From NCBI GenBank assembly GCA_023258975.1, contig JAHFRD010000024.1, positions 1 through 43,010 of the forward strand: a DNA stretch of 43,010 bases. Direction: 5' to 3'. A program made the translations under genes and the position numbers. This document shows, one piece after another, positions 1-18,111 of this stretch (positions are counted from its first letter, which is position 1; each line of letters opens with the position of its first letter). The notes below the pieces were generated by a model that made no database searches, had not been told where the DNA came from, and saw only the letters and a program-made list of their open reading frames with translations. This stretch comes from Hydrogenophilales bacterium (GTDB lineage Bacteria > Pseudomonadota > Gammaproteobacteria > Burkholderiales > Thiobacillaceae).

Positions 1-348
1 ACAACAGATCCAACTCATCCCATGCCGTGTTTACCCCGCAGCAATAAGATTGCTGTATGCGCAACGTTGTGCAGTGCCATTTATCTCGCAAAATCGAGCC
101 AAATATCGCGCGCCGCTCCATCCTGCTCAAGCCTGAGCATTTTCCCACCCAGACTCCCAGCCAGAAAAGTCCCATCCAAATTCCGACAGGCTGCCAAGTT
201 AAACGGATGGCCTTGGCGCGTCCCGCGCTGCTACGATGCCGCGTCCGTGCCACCCCGATCGGGATGGGCTGACAAATTCATACAGATGGCGTGCCCGGCT
301 CCGCGTTTCATGGGCGATGGGCACGCTGATGGCAAGGGAGACGCACGC
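1..348. other. Left-edge stretch without a recognisable gene
   Basis: No open frame here has convincing family character. The minus strand is open from about position 176 to the left edge, with a potential ATG at 176-174, but I do not recognise the 58-residue translation. The stretch ends in a good ribosome-binding sequence (AAGGGAG, 334-340) placed for the hsdR stub that starts at 349. Confidence 0.5.
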
Positions 349-471
349 ATGACGCCGGAAGACAAGGCGCGCCAGCGGATCGACCAAAAGCTCGATCAGG
401 CCGGCTGGGTGATTCAGGACATGAAGCAGCTCAACCTCTCGGCGGGGGTGGGCGTGGCCGTGCGCGAATAC
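349..471 (+). pseudogene. hsdR: 5' stub of type I restriction subunit HsdR
   Basis: From the ATG at 349, behind an AAGGGAG ribosome-binding site, about 41 residues match the N-terminal start of type I restriction endonuclease HsdR. The stretch AGWVIQDMKQLNL followed by GVAVREY is the characteristic opening of this family. In an intact protein of roughly 750 to 1000 residues, nuclease and DEAD-box translocase domains follow. Here the similarity stops near 471, and the reading frame runs only to a stop at 502-504. Immediately after, another frame carries the tail of a Fic protein, so a deletion has joined two genes. The stub cannot make a working enzyme. Family assignment is from recognition of the N-terminal motif, not a search. 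Confidence 0.7.
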
Positions 472-472
472 T

Positions 473-670
473 CTGTTCGACCGGCCGATTTTCCAGTCGG
501 GTGACTTTGTGCAGCGTTCCGGCATTCCCAAACAGTCGGCGCTGCCGTTTCTGCGCACCCTGCGGGAGGCGGGCATTTTGCAAGTTTTACGCGAGAGCAG
601 CGGGCGCCGTTCGGCGGTGCTGGCCTTCCGTGAATTGCTCAATTGCGCCGAGGGCCGGGAGATTCTTTGA
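473..670 (+). pseudogene. C-terminal remnant of a Fic-family protein
   Basis: Starting with LFDRPIFQSGDFVQ at 473 and ending at the TGA at 668-670, about 65 residues match the winged-helix C-terminus typical of Fic/DOC family AMP-transferases. The closing GRRSAVLAFRELLN and AEGREIL segments are characteristic. There is no start codon and no catalytic HPFxxGNGR motif, because the whole N-terminal and Fic core are missing. It is fused out of frame to the hsdR stub. Fic genes often sit inside type I restriction loci, which fits the hsdM relic downstream. No function is expected. Confidence 0.7.
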
Positions 671-681
671 GTCCAACCCGT

Positions 682-745
682 CATACACAACGCGGATTGC
701 GTATTAAAAATAGCGAAATATCAGACACAAACTGCGTTGTGTATG
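682..745. repeat. 12-bp perfect inverted repeat upstream of hsdM relic
   Basis: CATACACAACGC at 682-693 is the exact reverse complement of GCGTTGTGTATG at 734-745, with 40 nt between. A smaller ACACAA/TTGTGT pair (725-730 and 737-742) is nested in the right arm. The surrounding 672-876 gap is AT-rich compared with its neighbours and otherwise holds no gene. It may be an old operator pair for the restriction locus; no regulator is left here to test that. Confidence 0.6.
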
Positions 746-855
746 GTGACTCGGACGCAAACCGTCTTGTGGGCTACGCTCAATTTATTATCCAAAGGTC
801 GGGATAATAACGACGAGAATTAACATAACGCATTGAATGTAAAAATAATATTTAG

Positions 856-1699
<844 letters not shown>

Positions 1700-4074: not shown

Positions 4075-4105
4075 ATTATTACAGCCGTCACGAGCCTGTA
4101 ATAAT
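4075..4105. repeat. 10-bp perfect dyad in the glmM-pstS gap
   Basis: ATTATTACAG (4075-4084) and CTGTAATAAT (4096-4105) are exact reverse complements around an 11-nt spacer. The right arm contains the second half of the pstS Pho-box candidate. There is no T-run after it, so a simple terminator is unlikely; an operator is possible. Confidence 0.6.
4085..4102 (+). promoter_or_regulatory. Candidate Pho box of pstSCAB
   Basis: CCGTCAC-GAGC-CTGTAAT consists of two 7-mers at 11-bp spacing. Each differs at one position from the enterobacterial PhoB half-sites CTGTCAC and CTGTCAT. A weak -10-like CATAAG follows at 4111-4116. The pstS start is 54 nt downstream. PhoB control of pst operons is well established; this site is by eye. 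Confidence 0.6.
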
Positions 4106-4155
4106 TCGCGCATAAGCTGCGCCGGTTCCCAACTGAACCTGTCCGGAGATCACCC

Positions 4156-5178
4156 ATGAATCGTACCCCGCTGAAACTGGCCACTCTGGCCGCCGCCACG
4201 TTTGTCACTTTTTCCCTGAGCCTGTCCGCCCTGGCCGCCAATGTCACCGGCGCCGGCGCGACTTTCCCTTACGCCGTCTACACCAAGTGGGCCGAGGCCT
4301 ATAAGGGCGCGACCGGGAATCAGGTCAATTACCAGGGCATCGGCTCTTCCGGCGGCATCAAGCAGATCAAGGCCAAGACCGTCGATTTCGGCGGCACCGA
4401 CGCGCCCCTCTCCGAAGCCGAACTGGACGCGGCCAATCTGGTGCAGGTGCCGACCGTGATGGGCGGCGTCACCATCGTGTTCAACCTGCCCGGCGTCGAA
4501 TCCGGCAAGCTGAAGCTGGATGGCGTCACCGCCGCCAACATCTTCCGCGGAGCCATCACCAAGTGGAACGATCCCGCCATCGCCGCGCTGAATCCCGGCG
4601 TGAAACTGCCTGCCACCGCGATCACCGTGGCGCACCGTTCCGATGGTTCCGGCACCACCCACGTGTTCACCCACTATCTGGCCAAGCAGTCGATGGCGTT
4701 CAAGCGCGATGTCGGCGCCGACAAGACCGTGAACTGGCCGGTCAACGGCGTCGGCGGCAAGGGCAACCCCGGTGTCGCCGCCAATGTCCAGAAGATCGCC
4801 GGCGCCATTGGCTACGTCGATATCGCCGATGCCATGAAGAACGGCATGCACTTCGTGGCGTTGAAGAACCGGGCCGGCAACTTCATCGTGCCGAGCCAGG
4901 ACGCGGTGGCTGACGCTGCGGGCGGCGCCAACTTCAAGATCAAGGGCATGGCCCCGGATCTGCTCGACCAGACCCACAAGAATGCCTGGCCGATCACCAG
5001 CGCCACCTACATGCTGGCCTATGAGAAGGGTTCCGACGCCGCCCGTCAGAAGGGCGTGGTTGATTTCTTCGCCTGGTCGCTGAACCACGGCCAGAAGATG
5101 GCCGAGGAACTGGGTTTCGTGGCCCTGCCGTCCAACGTGGTGAAGATGGTCGAAGCCGAGATGAAGAACATCAAGTAA
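4156..5178 (+). CDS. pstS: Periplasmic phosphate-binding protein PstS
   Basis: PstS captures phosphate in the periplasm and delivers it to the PstCAB importer. The 340-residue precursor has a Sec signal peptide: positive N-region, hydrophobic core, and a likely cut after Ala27 in SALA-AN. The phosphate-binding loops are recognisable: GAGATFPYAVYTKW right after the signal, GIGSSGGIKQI, DFGGTDAPLS, and HRSDGSGTTHVFTHYL in the second lobe. ATG 4156 is followed immediately by the signal peptide, and CCGGAGAT lies upstream. It is the first gene of pstSCAB and follows a Pho-box candidate. A 204-nt gap with a repeat element separates it from pstC, which in many bacteria lets pstS be expressed above the rest of the operon. 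Confidence 0.97.
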   Translation: MNRTPLKLATLAAATFVTFSLSLSALAANVTGAGATFPYAVYTKWAEAYKGATGNQVNYQGIGSSGGIKQIKAKTVDFGGTDAPLSEAELDAANLVQVPTVMGGVTIVFNLPGVESGKLKLDGVTAANIFRGAITKWNDPAIAALNPGVKLPATAITVAHRSDGSGTTHVFTHYLAKQSMAFKRDVGADKTVNWPVNGVGGKGNPGVAANVQKIAGAIGYVDIADAMKNGMHFVALKNRAGNFIVPSQDAVADAAGGANFKIKGMAPDLLDQTHKNAWPITSATYMLAYEKGSDAARQKGVVDFFAWSLNHGQKMAEELGFVALPSNVVKMVEAEMKNIK

Positions 5179-5196
5179 TTTCAATCGCTTGTATCG

Positions 5197-5310
5197 GTTC
5201 GGGCGCGGAAGTCGTAACACGCCGGGCCGCCCCAAGTGTTTCTTGCCCCCCTTGGGGGGGGGCGCCGCCGGGTGTTTGGCGCCCTCGGGGGCATTCTTCC
5301 GCGCCCGAAC
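5197..5310. repeat. Palindromic intergenic element between pstS and pstC
   Basis: A 15-bp perfect inverted repeat encloses the element (GTTCGGGCGCGGAAG, 5197-5211, and its complement at 5296-5310). Inside is a hairpin AACAC (5216-5220), core GCCGGGCCGCCCCAA (5221-5235), GTGTT (5236-5240), then a C6-TT-G9 foldback near 5246-5261. A near-identical core in a longer hairpin occurs inverted at 35953-35987. It probably attenuates or processes the transcript between pstS and pstCAB. Confidence 0.75.
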
Positions 5311-5382
5311 TTTCTCCGAAAGCCTCCTTGTGTAGTCGAGGGGCCTTCCGGAGAATGCCGGATCAATTCAGGAAAGACTGCA

Positions 5383-6354
5383 ATGAGTGACATGGCCCCT
5401 CCCATCGACCTGCACGCCAGCCAGGTCAGGAAGTTCAATATTCAGGACATGCTTTTCCACCAGGTTACCCTGGTGTTCGCCTTCATCGTACTGGCGGCGC
5501 TGGCCGGCATCCTGATCTCCCTGGCCATCGAGGCTCTGCCGGTATTGAAACAAACCGGCCCGGCTTTCCTCTGGACCAATGTCTGGAACGTGCCGGAAGA
5601 GCAGTTTGGCGCGCTTTCCGCCATCTACGGCACCGTGGTGACCTCCGTTATCGCTCTGCTGATCGCCGTTCCGGTCAGCTTTGGCATCGCCCTGTTCCTC
5701 ACCGAAACCTGCCCGGTCTGGTTGCGCCGCCCGCTCGGCACCGCCATCGAACTGCTTGCCGGTGTGCCCTCCATCATCTACGGCATTTGGGGCCTGTTCG
5801 TGTTCGCGCCGCTGTTCGCCCAGCATGTGCAGCCCCACTTGCAAACCGCCCTCGGCGACGTGCCGGTGATCGGCGGCTGGTTTGCCGGCCCGCCCATCGG
5901 CATCGGCATCCTCACCGCCGGCATCGTGCTGTCCCTGATGGTGATTCCCTTCGTCGCCTCGGTGATGCGCGACGTGTTCGAGACCGTGCCGGCGCCGCTC
6001 AAGGAATCCGCCTACGGGGTCGGCTGCACCACCTGGGAAGTGGTGGTCAACGTGGTTCTGCCCTACACCCGGGTCGGCGTCATCGGCGGCATCATGTTGG
6101 GCCTCGGCCGCGCTCTGGGCGAGACGATGGCGGTCACCTTCGTGATCGGCAACGCCAACCGCATCGTCGGCAGCCTGTTCGCCCCCGGCACTTCGATCGC
6201 CTCCACACTGGCCAATGAATTCGGCGAGGCCGACCCCGGCCTGCATATTTCCTCGTTGTTCGCTTTGGGTCTGGTGCTGTTCGTCATCACCTTCGTGGTG
6301 TTGGCGCTCTCGCGCTGGCTGATCCATCGCGGCACCGTGAAGCAGGGCAAATGA
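5383..6354 (+). CDS. pstC: Phosphate ABC transporter permease PstC
   Basis: PstC is one of the two inner-membrane permeases of the high-affinity phosphate importer. The 323-residue protein has about six hydrophobic segments. The permease-to-ATPase coupling loop (EAA-like: ESAYGVGCTTWEVVVNVVLP) starts near residue 208, and GRALGETMAVTFVIG, typical of PstC, follows near 243. I chose ATG 5383 because AGGAAAG lies seven bases upstream and because the open frame before it runs through the repeat element, which is not protein-like. PstA follows after 22 nt. Length is in the normal range for betaproteobacterial PstC. Confidence 0.95.
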   Translation: MSDMAPPIDLHASQVRKFNIQDMLFHQVTLVFAFIVLAALAGILISLAIEALPVLKQTGPAFLWTNVWNVPEEQFGALSAIYGTVVTSVIALLIAVPVSFGIALFLTETCPVWLRRPLGTAIELLAGVPSIIYGIWGLFVFAPLFAQHVQPHLQTALGDVPVIGGWFAGPPIGIGILTAGIVLSLMVIPFVASVMRDVFETVPAPLKESAYGVGCTTWEVVVNVVLPYTRVGVIGGIMLGLGRALGETMAVTFVIGNANRIVGSLFAPGTSIASTLANEFGEADPGLHISSLFALGLVLFVITFVVLALSRWLIHRGTVKQGK

Positions 6355-6376
6355 GCGGGCAACCTGGAGTCACGCG

Positions 6377-7219
6377 ATGAGCTTGTATACCCGCCGCATC
6401 TGGACCAATCGCATCGGCATCGCCCTGTCGATGCTGGCGATGGCGTTTGGCCTGCTCGCGCTGCTGTGGATACTCTGGACCCTGTTCTACAACGGCTTCT
6501 CGGCGCTTTCCTGGAATTTCTTCACCCAGGACACCCCCGCGCCGGGCAGCGAGGGCGGCGGCCTGCGCAACGCCATCGTCGGTAGCCTGATGATCGTCGG
6601 CGTGACCACGCTGGTGTCGACGCCGATCGGCATTCTGGCCGGGATCTATCTGGCGGAATTCGGCACGACGTCCAAGTTCGCCGCGACCACCCGCTTCATC
6701 ACCGACATCATGTTGTCGGCGCCCTCCATCGTTGTCGGTCTGTTCGTCTATGCCCTGGTGGTGGCCACCCTGGGCGGCTTCTCCGGCTGGGCGGGCTCGC
6801 TGGCGTTGTCCCTGATCGCCATTCCCGTGGTGGTGCGCACCACGGAAAACATGCTGCTGCTGGTGCCCACCAGCCTGCGCGAGGCGGCATTCGCCGTGGG
6901 CGCGCCACGCTGGCAGGTGTCGCTGAAAGTTACCCTGCGCGCGGTCAAGGCCGGTGTGGTCACCGGCATCCTGCTTTCCATCGCCCGCGTCACCGGCGAA
7001 ACCGCGCCGCTGCTGTTCACCGCGCTGAACAACCAGTTCTACAGCACGAATATGTCGCAGCCGATGGGCAATCTGCCCGTGGTGATTTTCCAGTTCGCCA
7101 TGAGCCCCTATGACAACTGGGTCAGCCTGGCCTGGGGCGGCGCCCTGCTGATCGCCCTGCTGGTGCTCGGGATCAATGTGATCGCGCGGGTGCTGTTCCG
7201 CAAAAAATCCTCAGACTGA
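6377..7219 (+). CDS. pstA: Phosphate ABC transporter permease PstA
   Basis: PstA is the partner permease of PstC. The 280-residue protein has an N-terminal membrane helix (residues about 13-35), a periplasmic stretch with [20 protein letters not shown], and about five further helices. The coupling loop [19 protein letters not shown] is where PstB docks, and [14 protein letters not shown] is a PstA signature. ATG 6377 is preceded by ACCTGGAG. It lies 22 nt after pstC and 14 nt before pstB, so the genes are cotranscribed. Nothing unusual is seen. Confidence 0.95.
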
Positions 7220-7233
7220 ATTCGGAGTTCCCC

Positions 7234-8016
7234 ATGTCCGCCCCCCAACAGACCGCCGACGGCGACGCCATCCTGGAAGTTCGCGACCTGAACTTCTTCT
7301 ACGGCGATTTTCGCGGCCTGACCAATGTCTCCCTGGACATCGCCAAGAGCCGGGTGACCGCGTTCATCGGCCCGTCCGGCTGCGGCAAGTCCACCCTGCT
7401 GCGCACCTTTAACCGCATGTACGACCTCTATCCCGGCCAGCGCGCCGAAGGGCAGATCAACTTTCACGGCAACAATCTGCTGGATCGGAAACAGGACGTG
7501 AATCTGGTGCGCGCCAAGATCGGCATGGTGTTCCAGAAGCCGACGCCGTTTCCGATGACCATCTACGAGAACATCGCCTTCGGCGTGCGCCTGTACGAAA
7601 AACTGCCCAAGTCGGAGATGGACGACCGCGTCGAATGGGCGTTGCGCAAGGCGGCGATCTGGGAGGAAACCAAGGACAAACTGCAACAGAGCGGCCTGTC
7701 GCTCTCCGGCGGCCAGCAACAGCGCCTGTGCATTGCCCGCACCATCGCGGTGAAGCCGGAAATCGTCCTGCTCGACGAGCCGACTTCCGCGCTCGACCCG
7801 ATTTCCACGGCCAAGATCGAGGAGCTCATCAACGAGCTGAAGGACGATTACACCATCGCCATCGTCACCCACAACATGCAGCAGGCGGCGCGCATCTCCG
7901 ACTTCACCGCCTTCATGTATCTGGGCGAACTGGTCGAGTTCGGCAAGACCGACACCCTGTTCATCAAGCCCCGGGAAAAACAGACCGAGGACTACATTAC
8001 CGGCCGCTTCGGCTGA
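7234..8016 (+). CDS. pstB: Phosphate ABC transporter ATPase PstB
   Basis: PstB powers phosphate import by ATP hydrolysis at the inner face of the membrane. The 260-residue protein shows Walker [10 protein letters not shown] at 46-54, Q-loop [20 protein letters not shown] signature [13 protein letters not shown] starting near 157, Walker [14 protein letters not shown] and a switch histidine in TIAIVTHNM. These are PstB-specific in wording as well as order. It ends the pst operon. phoU, which follows pstB in many bacteria and links the importer to PhoR signalling, is absent here; a Pho-box candidate follows instead. Confidence 0.97.
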
Positions 8017-8334: not shown

Positions 8335-8580
8335 ATGGCCAACGCCGTCAAAACCATCGCCAAGTACATCCGGAAAAATCCGGAGAACGAAGCCACGCCG
8401 ATCCTCAAGGATCTCTGCGCCGCCCTGGAAGACTCCTCCGCTTTCGCGATGGGGCGCCTGTATCAACTGGACAAGAAACCCTTCGAACTGGCCATCGACC
8501 TGCTCGAAGAATGGCGCTTCGACCGCCATGTGTTCGAGCGGCGCCTGCAGAAATATCTGGATGAACCGGCGGAAGAATAA
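8335..8580 (+). CDS. Unknown 81-residue cytoplasmic protein
   Basis: I do not recognise this family. The 81 residues have no signal peptide, no membrane segment and no cysteines. The composition is charged and helix-friendly, with a repeated leucine/aromatic pattern in the segments AVKTIAKYIRKNPENEA, ILKDLCAALED, FELAIDLLEEW and VFERRLQKYLDE. This suggests a small all-helical, possibly dimeric or partner-binding protein. ATG 8335 follows AAGGAAA at good distance, and codon use is like its GC-rich neighbours, so it is very likely translated. The triple Pho-box candidate upstream and its position between pstB and the plcP operon suggest a role under phosphate limitation; that part is inference. 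Confidence 0.75.
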   Translation: MANAVKTIAKYIRKNPENEATPILKDLCAALEDSSAFAMGRLYQLDKKPFELAIDLLEEWRFDRHVFERRLQKYLDEPAEE

Positions 8581-8622: not shown

Positions 8623-9792
8623 CTAGCGCCGCGCCACTTCCCACAGCATCGCCTCGAACCGCTCGACGATGCTTTTCCAGCCATATTCCCGCATGGAACG
8701 GCTGGCTTCCTCGCCCTGGCGCCGCCGTAATTCCGGGTTGCCGGCCAGGGCCAGGGCGGCGGCGATGAAAGCCTCCGCGTCACCCGGAGCGACGGTCATG
8801 CCGTTCTCCCCGTCGCGAATCAATATCGCCGCCGCCGCGCGCCGGTAGGCGACGACATTCAAGCCACTGGCCAATGCTTCGGTCAGCACATTGCCCCAGG
8901 TTTCCGAGAGGCTGCCGAACAGAAACAGGTCGGCGCTGGCGTAATGGGCGGCCAGATCTTCGCCAATGCGCGAGCCGGCGAAGATGTGCTCCGGATGTGT
9001 CTCGCGCAGACGCGGCAGGGCGGGGCCGTCGCCCACCCAGACCATGCGCGCGCGCCGGTTGTGAGTGGCGATGGCGGCAAATGCCTGTTCCACCACGGCC
9101 AGGTTTTTCTCCGGGGCGAGGCGCCCGACATGGAGGCAGGCGAGGTCGTCGTCCGCCAGTCCCCAGCGCTTGCGCAACGCGTGGTCGCGCCGCGCCGGCT
9201 GAAACAACCGGGTATCGACGCCGCGCCCCAGCGCGCGCGCGTTGGGGATGCCGCGCGCGCCCAGTGTCGCGGCCAGTTCCGGCGTCGGCGCCAGGGTGGC
9301 CTGGCAGCGCCGATGCAGGGCGTCGAGCCAGCGGGTGACCCAGGGCATCATCCAGCCCAGCCCATAGTGGCCGCTGTATTGATCGAAGTGGGTGTGATAG
9401 CCGGAGGTCACCGGCAAGCCGCGCGCTCGCGCGGCCCACAAGGCGGCCCAGCCCAGGGGGCCTTCGGTGACCACATGCACGAGGTCGGGCCGCTGCCCGT
9501 CCATCAACCTTCCCAGGCGCCGCCAGGCCGGAAGGCCAAGGCGCAGGCCGGGATAGTTCGGTAGCGCCAGGCCGGGCACGACCCAGGTATCCGCCGCGTC
9601 CCGGTCATGCCGCTGCCTTGGGCGTACCACGCCCACCCAATGGCCGCGCGCGCGCAGGCCTTGCACCAGGCGTTCCGTGGTCATGGCGACGCCGTTGATT
9701 TCCGGGGGGTAGGTTTCCGTGACCAGAAGGATGCGCAGAACCCCGCGTGGGAGCGGGCTTGCCCGCGACGCGGCGGAGGCGATCGCGGTCAT
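8623..9792 (-). CDS. GT4 glycosyltransferase, Agt/SqdX-like
   Basis: This is a GT-B fold, retaining glycosyltransferase of family GT4, 389 residues from ATG 9792. The opening RILLVTETYPPEINGVAMT is the acceptor-side Rossmann start, GYHTHFDQYSGHYGLG a lipid-acceptor region like that of Agt/SqdX and related mannosyltransferases, and GRGVDTRLFQP the interdomain hinge. VGRLAPEKN and the E-x7-E pair in SETWGNVLTEA bind the sugar nucleotide. Enzymes of this group make glycolipids from diacylglycerol. ATG 9792 overlaps the upstream stop as ATGA. Residues 8 to 18 (ASRASPLPRGV) are encoded by a REP-like repeat and are probably an acquired extension. Third gene of the plcP operon. Sugar donor cannot be told from sequence. 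Confidence 0.85.
   Translation of the reverse strand: MTAIASAASRASPLPRGVLRILLVTETYPPEINGVAMTTERLVQGLRARGHWVGVVRPRQRHDRDAADTWVVPGLALPNYPGLRLGLPAWRRLGRLMDGQRPDLVHVVTEGPLGWAALWAARARGLPVTSGYHTHFDQYSGHYGLGWMMPWVTRWLDALHRRCQATLAPTPELAATLGARGIPNARALGRGVDTRLFQPARRDHALRKRWGLADDDLACLHVGRLAPEKNLAVVEQAFAAIATHNRRARMVWVGDGPALPRLRETHPEHIFAGSRIGEDLAAHYASADLFLFGSLSETWGNVLTEALASGLNVVAYRRAAAAILIRDGENGMTVAPGDAEAFIAAALALAGNPELRRRQGEEASRSMREYGWKSIVERFEAMLWEVARR
9747..9769 (+). repeat. REP-like element, GGAGCGG family, inside glycosyltransferase gene
   Basis: GTGGGAGCGGGCTTGCCCGCGA is the textbook form of a Pseudomonas-type REP, with stem GCGGGC/GCCCGC and loop TT. It lies within the first codons of the GT4 gene at 8623-9792. 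A variant, GTAGGAGCGGCCTTGGCCGCGA, sits inside nuoG at 19454-19475. Confidence 0.8.
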
Positions 9793-10931
9793 CGCGCAAG
9801 CCCTCGGTAAATCTCCGCCAACCTGTCCGCCAGCGCCTGATCCGACCATTCGCGCGCATAGGCGCGCGCTTGTTCGCCGAGGCGCATGAGCGTGACTGGA
9901 TCGTTCAGCAATTCCACCATCGCGCGCGCGAAGCCGGCGGGGTCGTCGGGGGCGACGCGGCAGCCGCGCCGGGGTTCCAGGATGTCCGCCGTGCCCATGA
10001 CCGATAGGCCCACTACCGGGCAGCGCTGCGCCATCGCTTCCAGCAACACCAGCCCCTGGGTTTCGGTGCGCGAGGCGAAGATGAAGATGTCTGCGGCGGC
10101 GTAGGCGGCGGGAAGCTCGCGCTTGCGATCCAGGTAGCCGAGAAAACGCACGCTGCCGGCCAGGCCCATTTGCGCCGACCGCTGTTCCAGATCGGCGCGC
10201 GCCGGGCCTTCGCCGGTGACCAGAAACAACAGTTCCGGAAGAACGCGCCGAGCAAGGGCGACCGCTTCCAGGAGAAAACCGATGTTTTTTTCATGCGCCA
10301 CTCGCCCGACGAACATCACCACCGGCCGCGCCGGGGAAATGCCGTGACGGGCGCGAAAGCCGGCGGCTTCTCCCGGCGTAAAGGCCGTGGATGGCAGGCC
10401 GGTGGGCAATACATGCGGGGGGCGGGTGACACCGTAGTCGCGCAGGCGCGCGCGCATGGCGGAGGAGGGCACGATCACCGTGTCCAGCGCGTTGCACTGG
10501 CCGCACGAGAAGCGCCGCGCCAGGCCGCGCAGCCAGGCCGCCGGCAGCCAGGGGATGTAGTGCCGCAGGTATTCCTCGAACAGGGTGTGGTAGGTGGCGA
10601 TCACCGGCTTGTTCAGCCGACGCGCGGCGCGCAGGCCGGCGTAATGCGCGGCGAACGGGGTCTGGATGTGGATCACGTCGCAGCTCTCGGCCGCTTTGAG
10701 GGTGGCGCGGCGCAGCTTTACGTAATGCGCCAGGCGATCCTCCGGGTCGCCTGGCACGCGCCGTGCCGGCACCCGGATGATCCCCGCCGCCGGCGCGTCG
10801 TCGCCATAGCTTGGCGCCACCAGCGTGACCTCCACACCGCGCGTGGCGAGCGCGCCGCGAAAGGTTTCAATGGAGGTGGAGACGCCGTTGATGCGCGGGA
10901 AATACACGTCCGAAACCATCAGGACGCGCAT
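9789..10931 (-). CDS. GT4 glycosyltransferase, diacylglycerol glucosyltransferase-like
   Basis: A second GT4 enzyme of 380 residues. It begins with RVLMVSDVYFPRINGVSTS and carries IATYHTLFEEYLRHYIP, a motif seen in monoglycosyl-diacylglycerol synthases. VGRVAHEKN and the E-x7-E pair in RTETQGLVLLEAM form the nucleotide-sugar site. Like its neighbour it should work at the inner face of the membrane. I chose ATG 10931 because it sits in TGATG with the plcP stop and because the next residues are the family start; the frame upstream encodes only shadow of plcP. Two related but clearly different GT4 enzymes in tandem could add two sugars in sequence or use different donors. The specificity is inferred from motif resemblance only. 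Confidence 0.85.
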   Translation of the reverse strand: MRVLMVSDVYFPRINGVSTSIETFRGALATRGVEVTLVAPSYGDDAPAAGIIRVPARRVPGDPEDRLAHYVKLRRATLKAAESCDVIHIQTPFAAHYAGLRAARRLNKPVIATYHTLFEEYLRHYIPWLPAAWLRGLARRFSCGQCNALDTVIVPSSAMRARLRDYGVTRPPHVLPTGLPSTAFTPGEAAGFRARHGISPARPVVMFVGRVAHEKNIGFLLEAVALARRVLPELLFLVTGEGPARADLEQRSAQMGLAGSVRFLGYLDRKRELPAAYAAADIFIFASRTETQGLVLLEAMAQRCPVVGLSVMGTADILEPRRGCRVAPDDPAGFARAMVELLNDPVTLMRLGEQARAYAREWSDQALADRLAEIYRGLAR

Positions 10932-11734
10932 CAGTCGGGCTCGGCCTGGAACGCCGGCGTCTTTCGCCCAAGCAAACTTGCCGGCAAGGATGCCGGCGCT
11001 ATAGCGCTCCACACCACCATTTCCAGGCGGCCGTCCTCGTGTTCGACGATGGCGGTGCAGGAATCCACCCAGTCGCCGCAGTTGGCGTAGATCAGACCAT
11101 CCATCTCCTTCAGCGCCGCCCAGTGGATATGGCCGCAGATCACGCCGTCGAGGCCGCGCTCGCGCACATGGCGCATCACCGAATCCTCGAAGTCGAAGAT
11201 GAACCGCAAGGCGGTCTTCACCCGCCGTTTGGCGTAGCCCGCAAGCGACCAGTATCCAGGGATGCCCAGGAGCCGGCGCAAGCGCGACAGCCAGCCGTTG
11301 ATGCGGACCAGCAGGTTGTAGGCAACGTCGCCGAGCACCGCCACCCAGCGGTGATACCGGGTAACCTGGTCGAAATCGTCGCCGTGAATGAGCAGGAAGC
11401 GGCGCCCGTCGGCGGTCTCATGCACGTATTCGTGTTCCACCCGGATATCGCCAAACGCGCTTCCTCGGTAATCGCGCAGGGCTTCGTCATGGTTGCCCGG
11501 CACGAATACCACTTGCTCGCCGTGGCGCGCGCGCCGCAGCACCTTCTGGATCACGGTGTTCTGCGCAGGGCTCCAGTGGATGCCCCGGCTCATGCTCCAG
11601 AAGTCGATGATGTCGCCGACCAGATAGAGATGGTGGGCGGGATATTCGCGCAGGAAGGCGAGCAGGCTTTCAGCCTGGCAGGCGCGGGTGCCCAGATGGA
11701 CATCCGAGATGAAGACGGAGCGGACGGCTGGCAT
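10931..11734 (-). CDS. plcP: PlcP-type metallophosphoesterase (phospholipase C)
   Basis: A 267-residue calcineurin-like phosphoesterase. Metal ligands are all present: SDVHLG near the N-terminus, GDIIDFW, GNHDE, HGDDFD and GHIHW. The family is usually annotated UDP-2,3-diacylglucosamine hydrolase, but the wording (FISDVHLGTRACQAE, VGDIIDFWSMSR, GDVAYNLLVRIN) is closer to PlcP as I know it from Sinorhizobium, which cleaves phosphate headgroups off membrane lipids when phosphate is scarce. The two coupled GT4 genes and an upstream Pho-box candidate support that reading. ATG 11734 is chosen because the 16 extra residues from ATG 11782 are encoded by the Pho box. The last 20 or so residues (SAIAPASLPASLL...) come from a REP-like repeat. 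LpxH-like activity remains the alternative. Confidence 0.75.
   Translation of the reverse strand: MPAVRSVFISDVHLGTRACQAESLLAFLREYPAHHLYLVGDIIDFWSMSRGIHWSPAQNTVIQKVLRRARHGEQVVFVPGNHDEALRDYRGSAFGDIRVEHEYVHETADGRRFLLIHGDDFDQVTRYHRWVAVLGDVAYNLLVRINGWLSRLRRLLGIPGYWSLAGYAKRRVKTALRFIFDFEDSVMRHVRERGLDGVICGHIHWAALKEMDGLIYANCGDWVDSCTAIVEHEDGRLEMVVWSAIAPASLPASLLGRKTPAFQAEPD
10970..11005 (-). repeat. REP-like element, GCCGGC family, inside plcP 3' end
   Basis: Read on the minus strand, TATAGCGCCGGCATCCTTGCCGGCAAG resembles the paired REP elements at 38039-38107, with stem GCCGGCA and TGCCGGC around a short loop. It encodes the unconserved C-terminal APASLPASLL of the PlcP-like protein, so it was probably gained by insertion near the old stop codon. 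Confidence 0.6.
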
Positions 11735-11758
11735 GGCCAGCGAATGTGGCAGGGGAGT

Positions 11759-11776
11759 GTGAAAGTTTGGTGACAA
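11759..11776 (-). promoter_or_regulatory. Candidate Pho box of the plcP operon
   Basis: On the minus strand TTGTCAC-CAAA-CTTTCAC gives two 7-mers in 11-bp register, matching CTGTCAC at 6 and 6 of 7 positions. It ends 24 nt before the chosen plcP start, so a promoter at standard spacing would give a very short leader. It is the third Pho-box candidate in 8 kb. Confidence 0.6.
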
Positions 11777-11823
11777 CGGCATGCGTGTTTTTTGAATGGA
11801 ACGCGCGCGTTACCAGTTCCGGA

Positions 11824-17784: not shown

Positions 17785-18111
17785 ATGACAAACATCGTTA
17801 ACCAAAATCGACAAGCGAATTTCAAGCTAATTAGGCTTGTTGCGTTTAATACTGCGCAGAAAAATTTCGCCAAGATATTGAATTTAAGCCAAAGCGAATA
17901 CAGTCAATACGAACGTGGCGAAAGAGCTATTCACCCTCACTATGCAAGGAAACTTGAGGAAGAACTAAAATTACCCAATGGCTGGATGGATCGTGATAAC
18001 GCCGCCCTCTTTCTCGATGAAGTTGAGTTTGAGTTGATTTGCAAATTACGAAATCAATCTGAGGATTTCCGCAACAAGCTGCTGAATTTAATTAGCAGCT
18101 TATCGGAATAA
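17785..18111 (+). CDS. Phage-repressor-like HTH protein inserted in nuo operon
   Basis: A 108-residue lambda-repressor-like (XRE) DNA-binding protein lies between nuoF and nuoG. The helix-turn-helix is visible as FAKILNLSQSEYSQYERGER, followed by ARKLEEELKLPNGWMDRD; LPxGWMD is typical of phage C1/C2-type repressors. The C-terminus is a short helix (ELICKLRNQSEDFRNKLLN), with no LexA-like peptidase domain. GC is about 40 percent by hand count over 17821-18060 (96 of 240), far below the neighbouring nuo genes, so it was probably acquired. ATG 17785 has no clear ribosome-binding site (only GAG nearby), suggesting weak expression or coupling to nuoF. It is not a complex I subunit. Targets are unknown. 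Confidence 0.85.
   Translation: MTNIVNQNRQANFKLIRLVAFNTAQKNFAKILNLSQSEYSQYERGERAIHPHYARKLEEELKLPNGWMDRDNAALFLDEVEFELICKLRNQSEDFRNKLLNLISSLSE

Follow-up and report, generated by a model that had tools for sequence, protein, structure and literature searches.

The DNA considered here, called the window throughout, is a stretch of 43,010 nucleotides from a Hydrogenophilales bacterium (Thiobacillaceae, Burkholderiales; forward strand of contig JAHFRD010000024.1, assembly GCA_023258975.1). On its minus strand lie three genes, plcP, GTa and GTb, whose reading frames overlap (plcP and GTa in TGATG, GTa and GTb in ATGA) and whose products carry a Pfam Metallophos domain (plcP) and GT4 domains (GTa, GTb). 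We analyzed them as a candidate operon for remodeling membrane lipids when phosphate is scarce. On one side, at 4156-8016 on the opposite, plus strand, are four genes that we take, from their sequences, to be pstSCAB; the other flank is a divergent tpiA-secG-nuo block. An initial annotation had reported the overlaps, the adjoining pst genes and a box of the form TTGTCAC-N4-CTTTCAC, and all were located where claimed. A longer plcP reading frame, starting at 11782, would take in this box.

Features of the plcP operon and the neighboring pst operon, in window coordinates
Feature	Position	Strand	Basis
plcP, PlcP-type phospholipase C (COG2908-like metallophosphoesterase), 267 residues	10931..11734	minus	domains, profile scores, tree, motif
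GTa, GT4 glycosyltransferase of a PlcP-linked clade distinct from Agt and Agt2, 380 residues	9789..10931	minus	domains, tree, columns, model
GTb, GT4 glycosyltransferase, orthologue of P. aeruginosa Agt2 (glucuronosyl-diacylglycerol synthase), 389 residues	8623..9792	minus	domains, identity, tree
Pho box of the plcP operon, TTGTCAC-N4-CTTTCAC (N4 = CAAA)	11759..11776	minus	sequence; position common to many relatives
plcP -10 element CACATT, exactly 10 bp past the Pho box, 8 nt before ATG	11743..11748	minus	spacing shared with boxed relatives; promoter scan
Pho box of pstS, CCGTCAC-N4-CTGTAAT	4085..4102	plus	promoter scan
pstS -10 element TAAGCT, exactly 10 bp past the pstS Pho box	4113..4118	plus	promoter scan
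pstS, phosphate-binding protein	4156..5178	plus	open reading frame list; named from sequence
pstC, true start probably internal to the reading frame	5236..6354	plus	open reading frame list; named from sequence
pstA	6377..7219	plus	open reading frame list; named from sequence
pstB	7234..8016	plus	open reading frame list; named from sequence

The phosphoesterase shares its metallophosphoesterase fold and its usual database label with LpxH, the UDP-2,3-diacylglucosamine hydrolase. We find, as the initial annotation had proposed, that this label is wrong for the gene. Against the LpxH model TIGR01854 (cut-off 190.35 bits) the window protein scores 42.3-43.0 bits, and a separate gene of the genome encodes an LpxH that scores 259.5 bits. 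A tree split 57 PlcP-side rows from 14 LpxH rows on a 100/100 branch, its bootstrap not fully settled, with the window protein on the same side as the PlcP proteins of Sinorhizobium meliloti and Pseudomonas aeruginosa. All 57 PlcP-side rows, the window protein included, have the motif GNHD, in contrast to GNRD in all 14 LpxH rows. The metal-site motifs DxH, GD, GNHD, HGD and GHxH are all present in the window protein and were invariant across 12 aligned rows. Two loci with stops inside plcP (L050, L066) and the short loci L007, L008, L012 and L029 were left out of the tree. Gene context served to pick out the reference rows: S. meliloti plcP next to acyl-homoserine lactone (AHL) synthase and LuxR-type genes, P. 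aeruginosa plcP followed by agt1, and E. coli lpxH. The two PlcP references are 47% identical to each other, near the 46% printed in PMC8528852 (papers are cited here and below from excerpts of their text). By its sequence relationships, then, the 267-residue protein is PlcP and not LpxH, and activity on phospholipids is predicted for it from its family. The initial annotation would have been refuted by a place inside LpxH in a genome with no other lpxH, and neither was the case.

The distribution of the two proteins also differs. In a set of 101 genomes, made up of the window's own and 100 relatives, a PlcP homologue (1e-30) occurs in 58 and an LpxH above the cut-off in 93. Reading the two listings together, 54 of the 58 PlcP genomes have both, the exceptions being G005, G010, G038 and G075. 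The last of these, a single-contig genome listed as 100% complete, has two PlcP copies (L073, L075) and no LpxH match at 0.001.

Window PlcP is 54% identical to the P. aeruginosa protein and 49% to that of S. meliloti. These characterized enzymes fall in a branch of 28 rows (96/100), about 45-54% identical to the window, that we call B-type; A-type is a working label for rows about 60-91% identical to the window, which the tree does not make one clade (2 changes). For tallies the line between the types was drawn at 55% identity among relatives and at 57% among named loci, the latter being the best 80 of 580 confirmed stretches and overlapping the relatives (L104 and L042, for example, or L122 and L066). 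Within those 80, the named locus closest by PlcP is L104, from a metagenome-assembled genome titled Betaproteobacteria, with a PlcP 86% identical and the same layout. Some of the records that carry plcP are labeled as plasmids. Three P. aeruginosa plasmid records (hits H3-H5, H78-H80; L035) carry plcP and agt1, and the surroundings in L035 resemble a chromosomal segment. A 3.7-Mb S. meliloti record labeled plasmid pSymB (L033) carries the AHL synthase, LuxR-type and plcP genes; we take these to be chromosomal in that species, and the pSymB label may be wrong. On a Mitsuaria plasmid (L036), plcP adjoins ppk1 and a Ppx/GppA phosphatase gene.

We then asked how far the promoter supports regulation by phosphate. 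None of 60 single-base shuffles of the plcP upstream region reached the score of its Pho box. A Pho-like box scoring at least 10.5, on a scale with a maximum of 14, starts at -44 to -38 in 26 of 69 A-type plcP upstream regions (non-redundant, 4 near-identical ones out of 73 having been dropped), whereas 15 other windows of 7 bp have 0-4 each. The box at -40 to -42 is kept where the upstream neighbor is not tpiA (L052-L060). In 31 of the 69 upstream regions a box of at least 10 lies at -42 to -40, and a hexamer nAnnnT follows exactly 10 bp past it in all 31, compared with at most 3 of 31 at 16 other offsets; these loci are related and include the window's plcP, so that this is a count and not a probability. 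The box ends 22-24 nt ahead of the start codon in the boxed loci. Given the spacing of Pho promoters, such as the -10 spacing of E. coli phoA, transcription is expected to start at about the start codon, and the plcP mRNA is probably leaderless or nearly leaderless.

The same geometry recurs at other genes. When both strands of the window were scanned for a box with its -10 element, the two best matches were plcP and pstS, both at 11.5, a score at which 20 first-order Markov controls of window length gave a mean of 0.0; pstS had not been used in forming the box-N10-nAnnnT rule. Upstream of GTb, 21 of 23 loci could be scored and 14 reach 10.5 on either strand. Seven GTb genes in which a separate box was read, a selection out of 14 loci, all follow the 10-bp spacing rule. 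At another place the genome encodes PhoB (360 bits, TIGRFAM cut-off 296) together with PhoR (417 bits, cut-off 334), though the stricter PRK models, with their higher cut-offs, were not reached. Pho control of the plcP operon, as the initial annotation proposed, thus has good comparative support.

The two glycosyltransferases belong to different clades. GTb is 49% identical to P. aeruginosa Agt2 and 34% to Agt1. The Agt2 reference came from a P. aeruginosa record with a plcR and phospholipase C neighborhood, and we take it to be PA0842 on the strength of that context and its 34.6% identity to Agt1. A glycosyltransferase tree of 153 rows (2 of 155, shorter than 290 residues, were left out) gave three clades by the Shimodaira-Hasegawa-like approximate likelihood ratio test (SH-aLRT): GTa (51 rows, support 100), Agt (51 rows including Agt1, support 99) and GTb (51 rows, support 99), the last made up of 49 GTb rows, Agt2 and an Acinetobacter baumannii homologue. 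This was a quick search with SH-aLRT as its only support, and rows were labeled by best-matching query, which partly builds in the clustering of labels. At nine columns separating GTb from Agt (51 GTa, 49 GTb and 48 Agt rows; rows with X or under 300 residues left out), Agt2 carries the GTb residue at all nine. A search of the window's genome with Agt1 at 1e-10 brings up GTb and GTa and nothing else, and at 1e-55 there is no match. That GTb might be Agt1 itself was rejected on these identities and on its clade with Agt2. Because Agt2 was shown to make glucuronosyl-diacylglycerol (PMC8528852), GTb is predicted to make this acidic lipid. Three nucleoside diphosphate-sugar dehydrogenases above cut-off in the genome offer a plausible donor supply for a GTb that uses UDP-glucuronate. 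In A. baumannii (L200), an Agt2/GTb-type glycosyltransferase gene (39% to GTb) is followed by one for a PAP2-family phosphatase, possibly another source of diacylglycerol.

GTa is 30-34% identical to Agt1, Agt2 and GTb, and at the nine columns it is Agt-like at 3 and GTb-like at 2, with a residue of its own at 4. Neither GTa nor GTb falls in the Agt clade. Against the alpha-monoglucosyl-diacylglycerol synthase model NF049988 GTa scores 113.5 bits where the cut-off is 400. For both GTa and GTb the best curated model is N-acetylglucosaminyl-phosphatidylglycerol synthase (135.6 and 139.2 bits, cut-off 480), and Agt2 likewise scores below the cut-off, at 135.2 bits; NCBIfam scores cannot tell the three apart. 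The structural model of GTa, with a predicted local distance difference test value of 91, is nearest to general GT4 enzymes (MshA, BshA, PimB), which decides nothing. By tree and diagnostic columns, GTa stands in a third clade of GT4 enzymes, separate from Agt and from Agt2, and is a candidate for a new diacylglycerol glycosyltransferase. The initial view that the operon encodes two different GT4 enzymes, one of them Agt-like, therefore holds, with the Agt-like one, GTb, being specifically an Agt2 orthologue and the other, which it likened to diacylglycerol glucosyltransferases, being a separate clade that scores under the cut-off of the curated model for them.

Gene linkage ties these clades to PlcP type. 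Near A-type plcP in relatives (31 loci including the window) we counted GTa in 29, GTb in 24, Agt in 1, dgkA in 2 and pst in 22; in named loci (39) the counts were 21, 20, 1, 17 and 8. Near B-type plcP they were 0, 2, 18, 2 and 0 in relatives (23 loci) and 0, 2, 32, 0 and 1 in named loci (41). Some of these loci are cut by contig ends, and the dgkA queries were taken from A-type loci. The pst genes adjoin the operon in many relatives. The dgkA gene encodes a prokaryotic diacylglycerol kinase and lies between or near GTa and GTb, with PF01219 found in 4 of 10 scanned reading frames; its presence in or near the operon points to diacylglycerol as the common intermediate. It stands inside or beside plcP-GTa-GTb operons in L107, L110 (Azonexaceae bacterium s22, with plcP, GTa, dgkA and GTb), L111, L131 and other A-type loci; L135, from Aromatoleum toluclasticum, combines A-type plcP with GTb, and L230 has a GTa-dgkA pair without plcP in the short stretch examined. 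The window's own genome has two dgkA genes elsewhere, one of them 64-73% identical to the operonic ones.

To see how the enzymes combine more widely, we used a class-wide sample of 274 genomes, in which the glycosyltransferase searches scored at most 7 candidates per genome. PlcP was found in 79 genomes, GTa in 30 (26 with PlcP), Agt in 45 (44 with PlcP) and GTb in 32 (24 with PlcP). The 79 PlcP genomes divide into Agt alone (35), GTa with GTb (13), GTb alone (10), GTa with Agt (8), none of the three (7), GTa alone (5) and GTb with Agt (1). Agt and GTb are thus nearly exclusive (Fisher p 3e-10), whereas GTa pairs with either; that GTa is a plain replacement of Agt is weakened by its co-occurrence with Agt. 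P. aeruginosa, which has both Agt1 and Agt2, is a known exception (PMC8528852). No Pseudomonas-like match was present in the class sample (best 66% to P. aeruginosa PlcP), and the P. aeruginosa references are plasmid-collection records. Of the 26 genomes that have GTa and PlcP together, 13 have GTa at most 4 kb from plcP. Of the 30 GTa loci, part have GTa beside Agt, an Agt2-type gene, dgkA or plcP, and the others have none of these within the short stretch examined.

In summary, these results lead us to conclude that plcP, GTa and GTb very probably form a Pho-regulated membrane-lipid remodeling operon, through which phospholipids would be replaced by glycolipids under phosphate scarcity. The conclusion rests on gene identities by phylogeny, the separate lpxH, the conserved promoter architecture and gene linkage. 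When phosphate is scarce, PhoR and PhoB would activate the promoter formed by the Pho box, the 10-bp spacer and the -10 element, giving a transcript that starts at or a few bases from the plcP start codon. PlcP, judging from its family, would cut phospholipids into diacylglycerol and a phospho-headgroup, with phosphate freed; GTb, judging from orthology, would add glucuronic acid to the diacylglycerol to give an acidic glycolipid; and GTa would most likely attach a hexose to this diacylglycerol, yielding a neutral glycolipid, a step for which we see about an even chance. The neighboring pst operon, with the same kind of promoter, would import phosphate; where a related locus has a diacylglycerol kinase gene, as a good share of them do, that enzyme would convert surplus diacylglycerol back to phosphatidic acid. 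A Pho-regulation mutant of a Pseudomonas strain lacked PlcP in its proteome under starvation, and PlcP, DagK, OlsA and OlsB are described there as Pho-dependent (PMC5082522). Pho-dependence of both PlcP and DagK is in line with a diacylglycerol branch point.

Several observations weigh against this interpretation. In 38 of the 69 A-type plcP upstream regions there is no box of at least 10 at -42 to -40; in some of these GTb or GTa precedes plcP, so that plcP is not the first gene. Nine loci have GTb ahead of plcP; the region preceding GTb could be scored in 8 of them, and 4 reach 10.5. The pstS upstream regions of relatives are weaker: of 12 loci 10 were scorable, and a box of at least 10.5 on the pstS strand occurs only in the window (11.5) and L063 (10.5), while the Pho site near pstS in L052-L054 and L106 reads towards a divergent GTb. 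A loose Pho pattern (at most 1 mismatch) found 11 sites genome-wide and 11 in the control, so that little is proved by the sequence of the box on its own. Of the 79 PlcP genomes, 7 gave none of the three glycosyltransferases, and 8 of the 32 GTb genomes lack PlcP. Among solved structures the PlcP model is closest to LpxH, at a template modeling score of about 0.5, and fold alone cannot tell the two apart. Finally, the characterized relatives are too distant to assign a donor or an acceptor to GTa.

The alternative that survives best is that the two glycosyltransferases act in sequence, GTb making glucuronosyl-diacylglycerol and GTa adding a second sugar to give a diglycosyl lipid. Sgt1 and Sgt2 of Caulobacter crescentus, a PhoB-regulated pair that we liken to GTa and GTb by description and not by sequence, work in this way on ceramide (PMC6445935). 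The combinations of GTa with Agt or GTb, which themselves almost never meet, are also what one would expect if Agt and GTb were alternative first steps and GTa the second, although the pairing of GTa with either also fits a hexose on diacylglycerol. However, the five PlcP genomes with GTa and neither Agt nor GTb, three of which (G121, G269 and G342; L212, L213 and L231) have GTa directly beside plcP, imply that GTa can probably use diacylglycerol itself, and we regard the sequential scheme as unlikely, if the strongest competitor.

A second possibility accepts Pho regulation and gives the glycosyltransferases another acceptor: ceramide, phosphatidylglycerol or a surface polysaccharide. The Caulobacter enzymes do use ceramide (PMC6445935), and the top curated model for GTa and GTb is, well under its cut-off, a synthase acting on phosphatidylglycerol. 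Yet Agt2 has the same sub-cut-off score and uses diacylglycerol (PMC8528852), and the operon also encodes a phosphoesterase from a family, PlcP, that makes diacylglycerol, joined in relatives by a diacylglycerol kinase; together these make another acceptor improbable.

Less probable again, and to our minds very doubtful, is that the box is a coincidence and the operon not under PhoB. Single Pho-like sites are no commoner in the genome than in the control, and the box is missing at this position in the 38 upstream regions mentioned. The loose pattern was written to fit the window site, which makes it circular that no other site matches exactly, and the six reading frames beside the weaker genome-wide sites (ribosomal protein S3, a SoxA/TsdA cytochrome domain protein and four without a Pfam match) include no known phosphate gene. 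Against coincidence stand the fixed position of the box, its fixed 10-bp spacing to the -10 element, and the same arrangement at GTb genes with their own promoters. Scarcely credible, finally, is that the phosphoesterase is LpxH or a paralogue of it serving lipid A synthesis, with lipopolysaccharide as the product of the glycosyltransferases: database names (UDP-2,3-diacylglucosamine diphosphatase) and the nearest solved fold suggest it, but the separate LpxH, GNHD in place of GNRD, the 100/100 branch, the patchy occurrence in relatives and the Pho promoter with its pst neighborhood all speak against it.

The remodeling operon can be set beside systems already described. In P. aeruginosa the pathway consists of PlcP, Agt1 and Agt2 (PA3219, PA3218 and PA0842), Agt1 making glucosyl-diacylglycerol (PMC8528852). 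The window resembles it in PlcP, in GTb, in the Pho box, in having two glycosyltransferases and in the diacylglycerol intermediate. It differs in that P. aeruginosa has agt1 after plcP and agt2 apart, beside plcR and a phospholipase C gene, whereas here GTa stands after plcP, the agt2 orthologue is in the same operon and no Agt1-type gene was found in the genome. With the alphaproteobacterial plcP-agt operons (S. meliloti PlcP; SAR11 and Agrobacterium Agt; PMC4796936) it shares a PlcP homologue, Pho regulation and glycolipid output. The initial annotation saw here the same system as in alphaproteobacteria; with GTa and GTb instead of Agt as partners of A-type PlcP (Agt counts above), the arrangement is a related one and not the same. 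In Methylosinus trichosporium OB3b plcP-agt is needed for GADG under phosphate limitation, and an MGDG synthase is reported there, in the excerpted text, without an assigned gene (PMC9239053). The synthase of the P. aeruginosa lipid UGL is likewise left without an assigned gene in the literature, as excerpted. GTa is a candidate for such a glycolipid synthase role in PlcP bacteria generally.

A fuller reading joins these points, and we advance it tentatively, at somewhat less than an even chance for the whole. GTa would found a new diacylglycerol glycosyltransferase family for phosphate-starvation remodeling, with Agt or GTb as its partner, and would supply a neutral or second-sugar glycolipid beside that glucuronosyl-making partner; operonic dgkA would complete a diacylglycerol-partitioning module; the PhoB promoters would give leaderless mRNAs; and enzymes of the GTa kind could be among the glycosyltransferases reported without assignment in PlcP bacteria.

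Three further features of the window lie outside the operon. Between pstB and GTb, at 8335-8580 on the plus strand, is an 81-residue reading frame that is 69-79% conserved in relatives of the same layout and has no Pfam match. A 108-residue HTH_3-domain protein is encoded between nuoF and nuoG (17785-18111, plus strand). An N6 adenine methylase piece (PF02384; 1040-1699, plus strand) belongs to a stretch at 346-1699 (plus strand) whose upstream part has no Pfam match and which, from the likeness of that part to the HsdR N-terminus, we take to be possibly a decayed type I restriction locus.

Methylotenera is a betaproteobacterium. Its plcP transcripts (PMC9239053) mean that betaproteobacterial plcP itself is already on record, as is plcP expression in Baltic bacteria (PMC13086504). 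The pathway too is known (PMC4796936, PMC8528852, PMC9239053), the remodeling having been worked out in alphaproteobacteria and Pseudomonas according to the excerpted literature. In the open PMC literature, as excerpted and with most subscription papers outside it, we found no betaproteobacterial plcP-GTa operon, no characterized GTa-like enzyme and no such leaderless Pho promoter. As far as that literature shows, then, the following are new: an A-type PlcP group whose partners are GTa and GTb instead of Agt, the clade that GTa represents, the presence of dgkA in such operons, the near-exclusion between Agt and GTb, and the fixed geometry of the PhoB promoter. Among the best 80 of 580 stretches are loci whose titles name Dechloromonas, Accumulibacter, Thauera, Gallionella and many uncultured Betaproteobacteria. 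If betaproteobacteria have a PlcP group with a separate set of glycosyltransferases, lipid remodeling would be widened to organisms of wastewater, freshwater and sediment. The PlcP identity also corrects a common annotation of the LpxH type that is wrong. The near-exclusion of Agt and GTb, with GTa pairing with either, would also reduce the question of which enzyme makes which glycolipid to a few direct assays.

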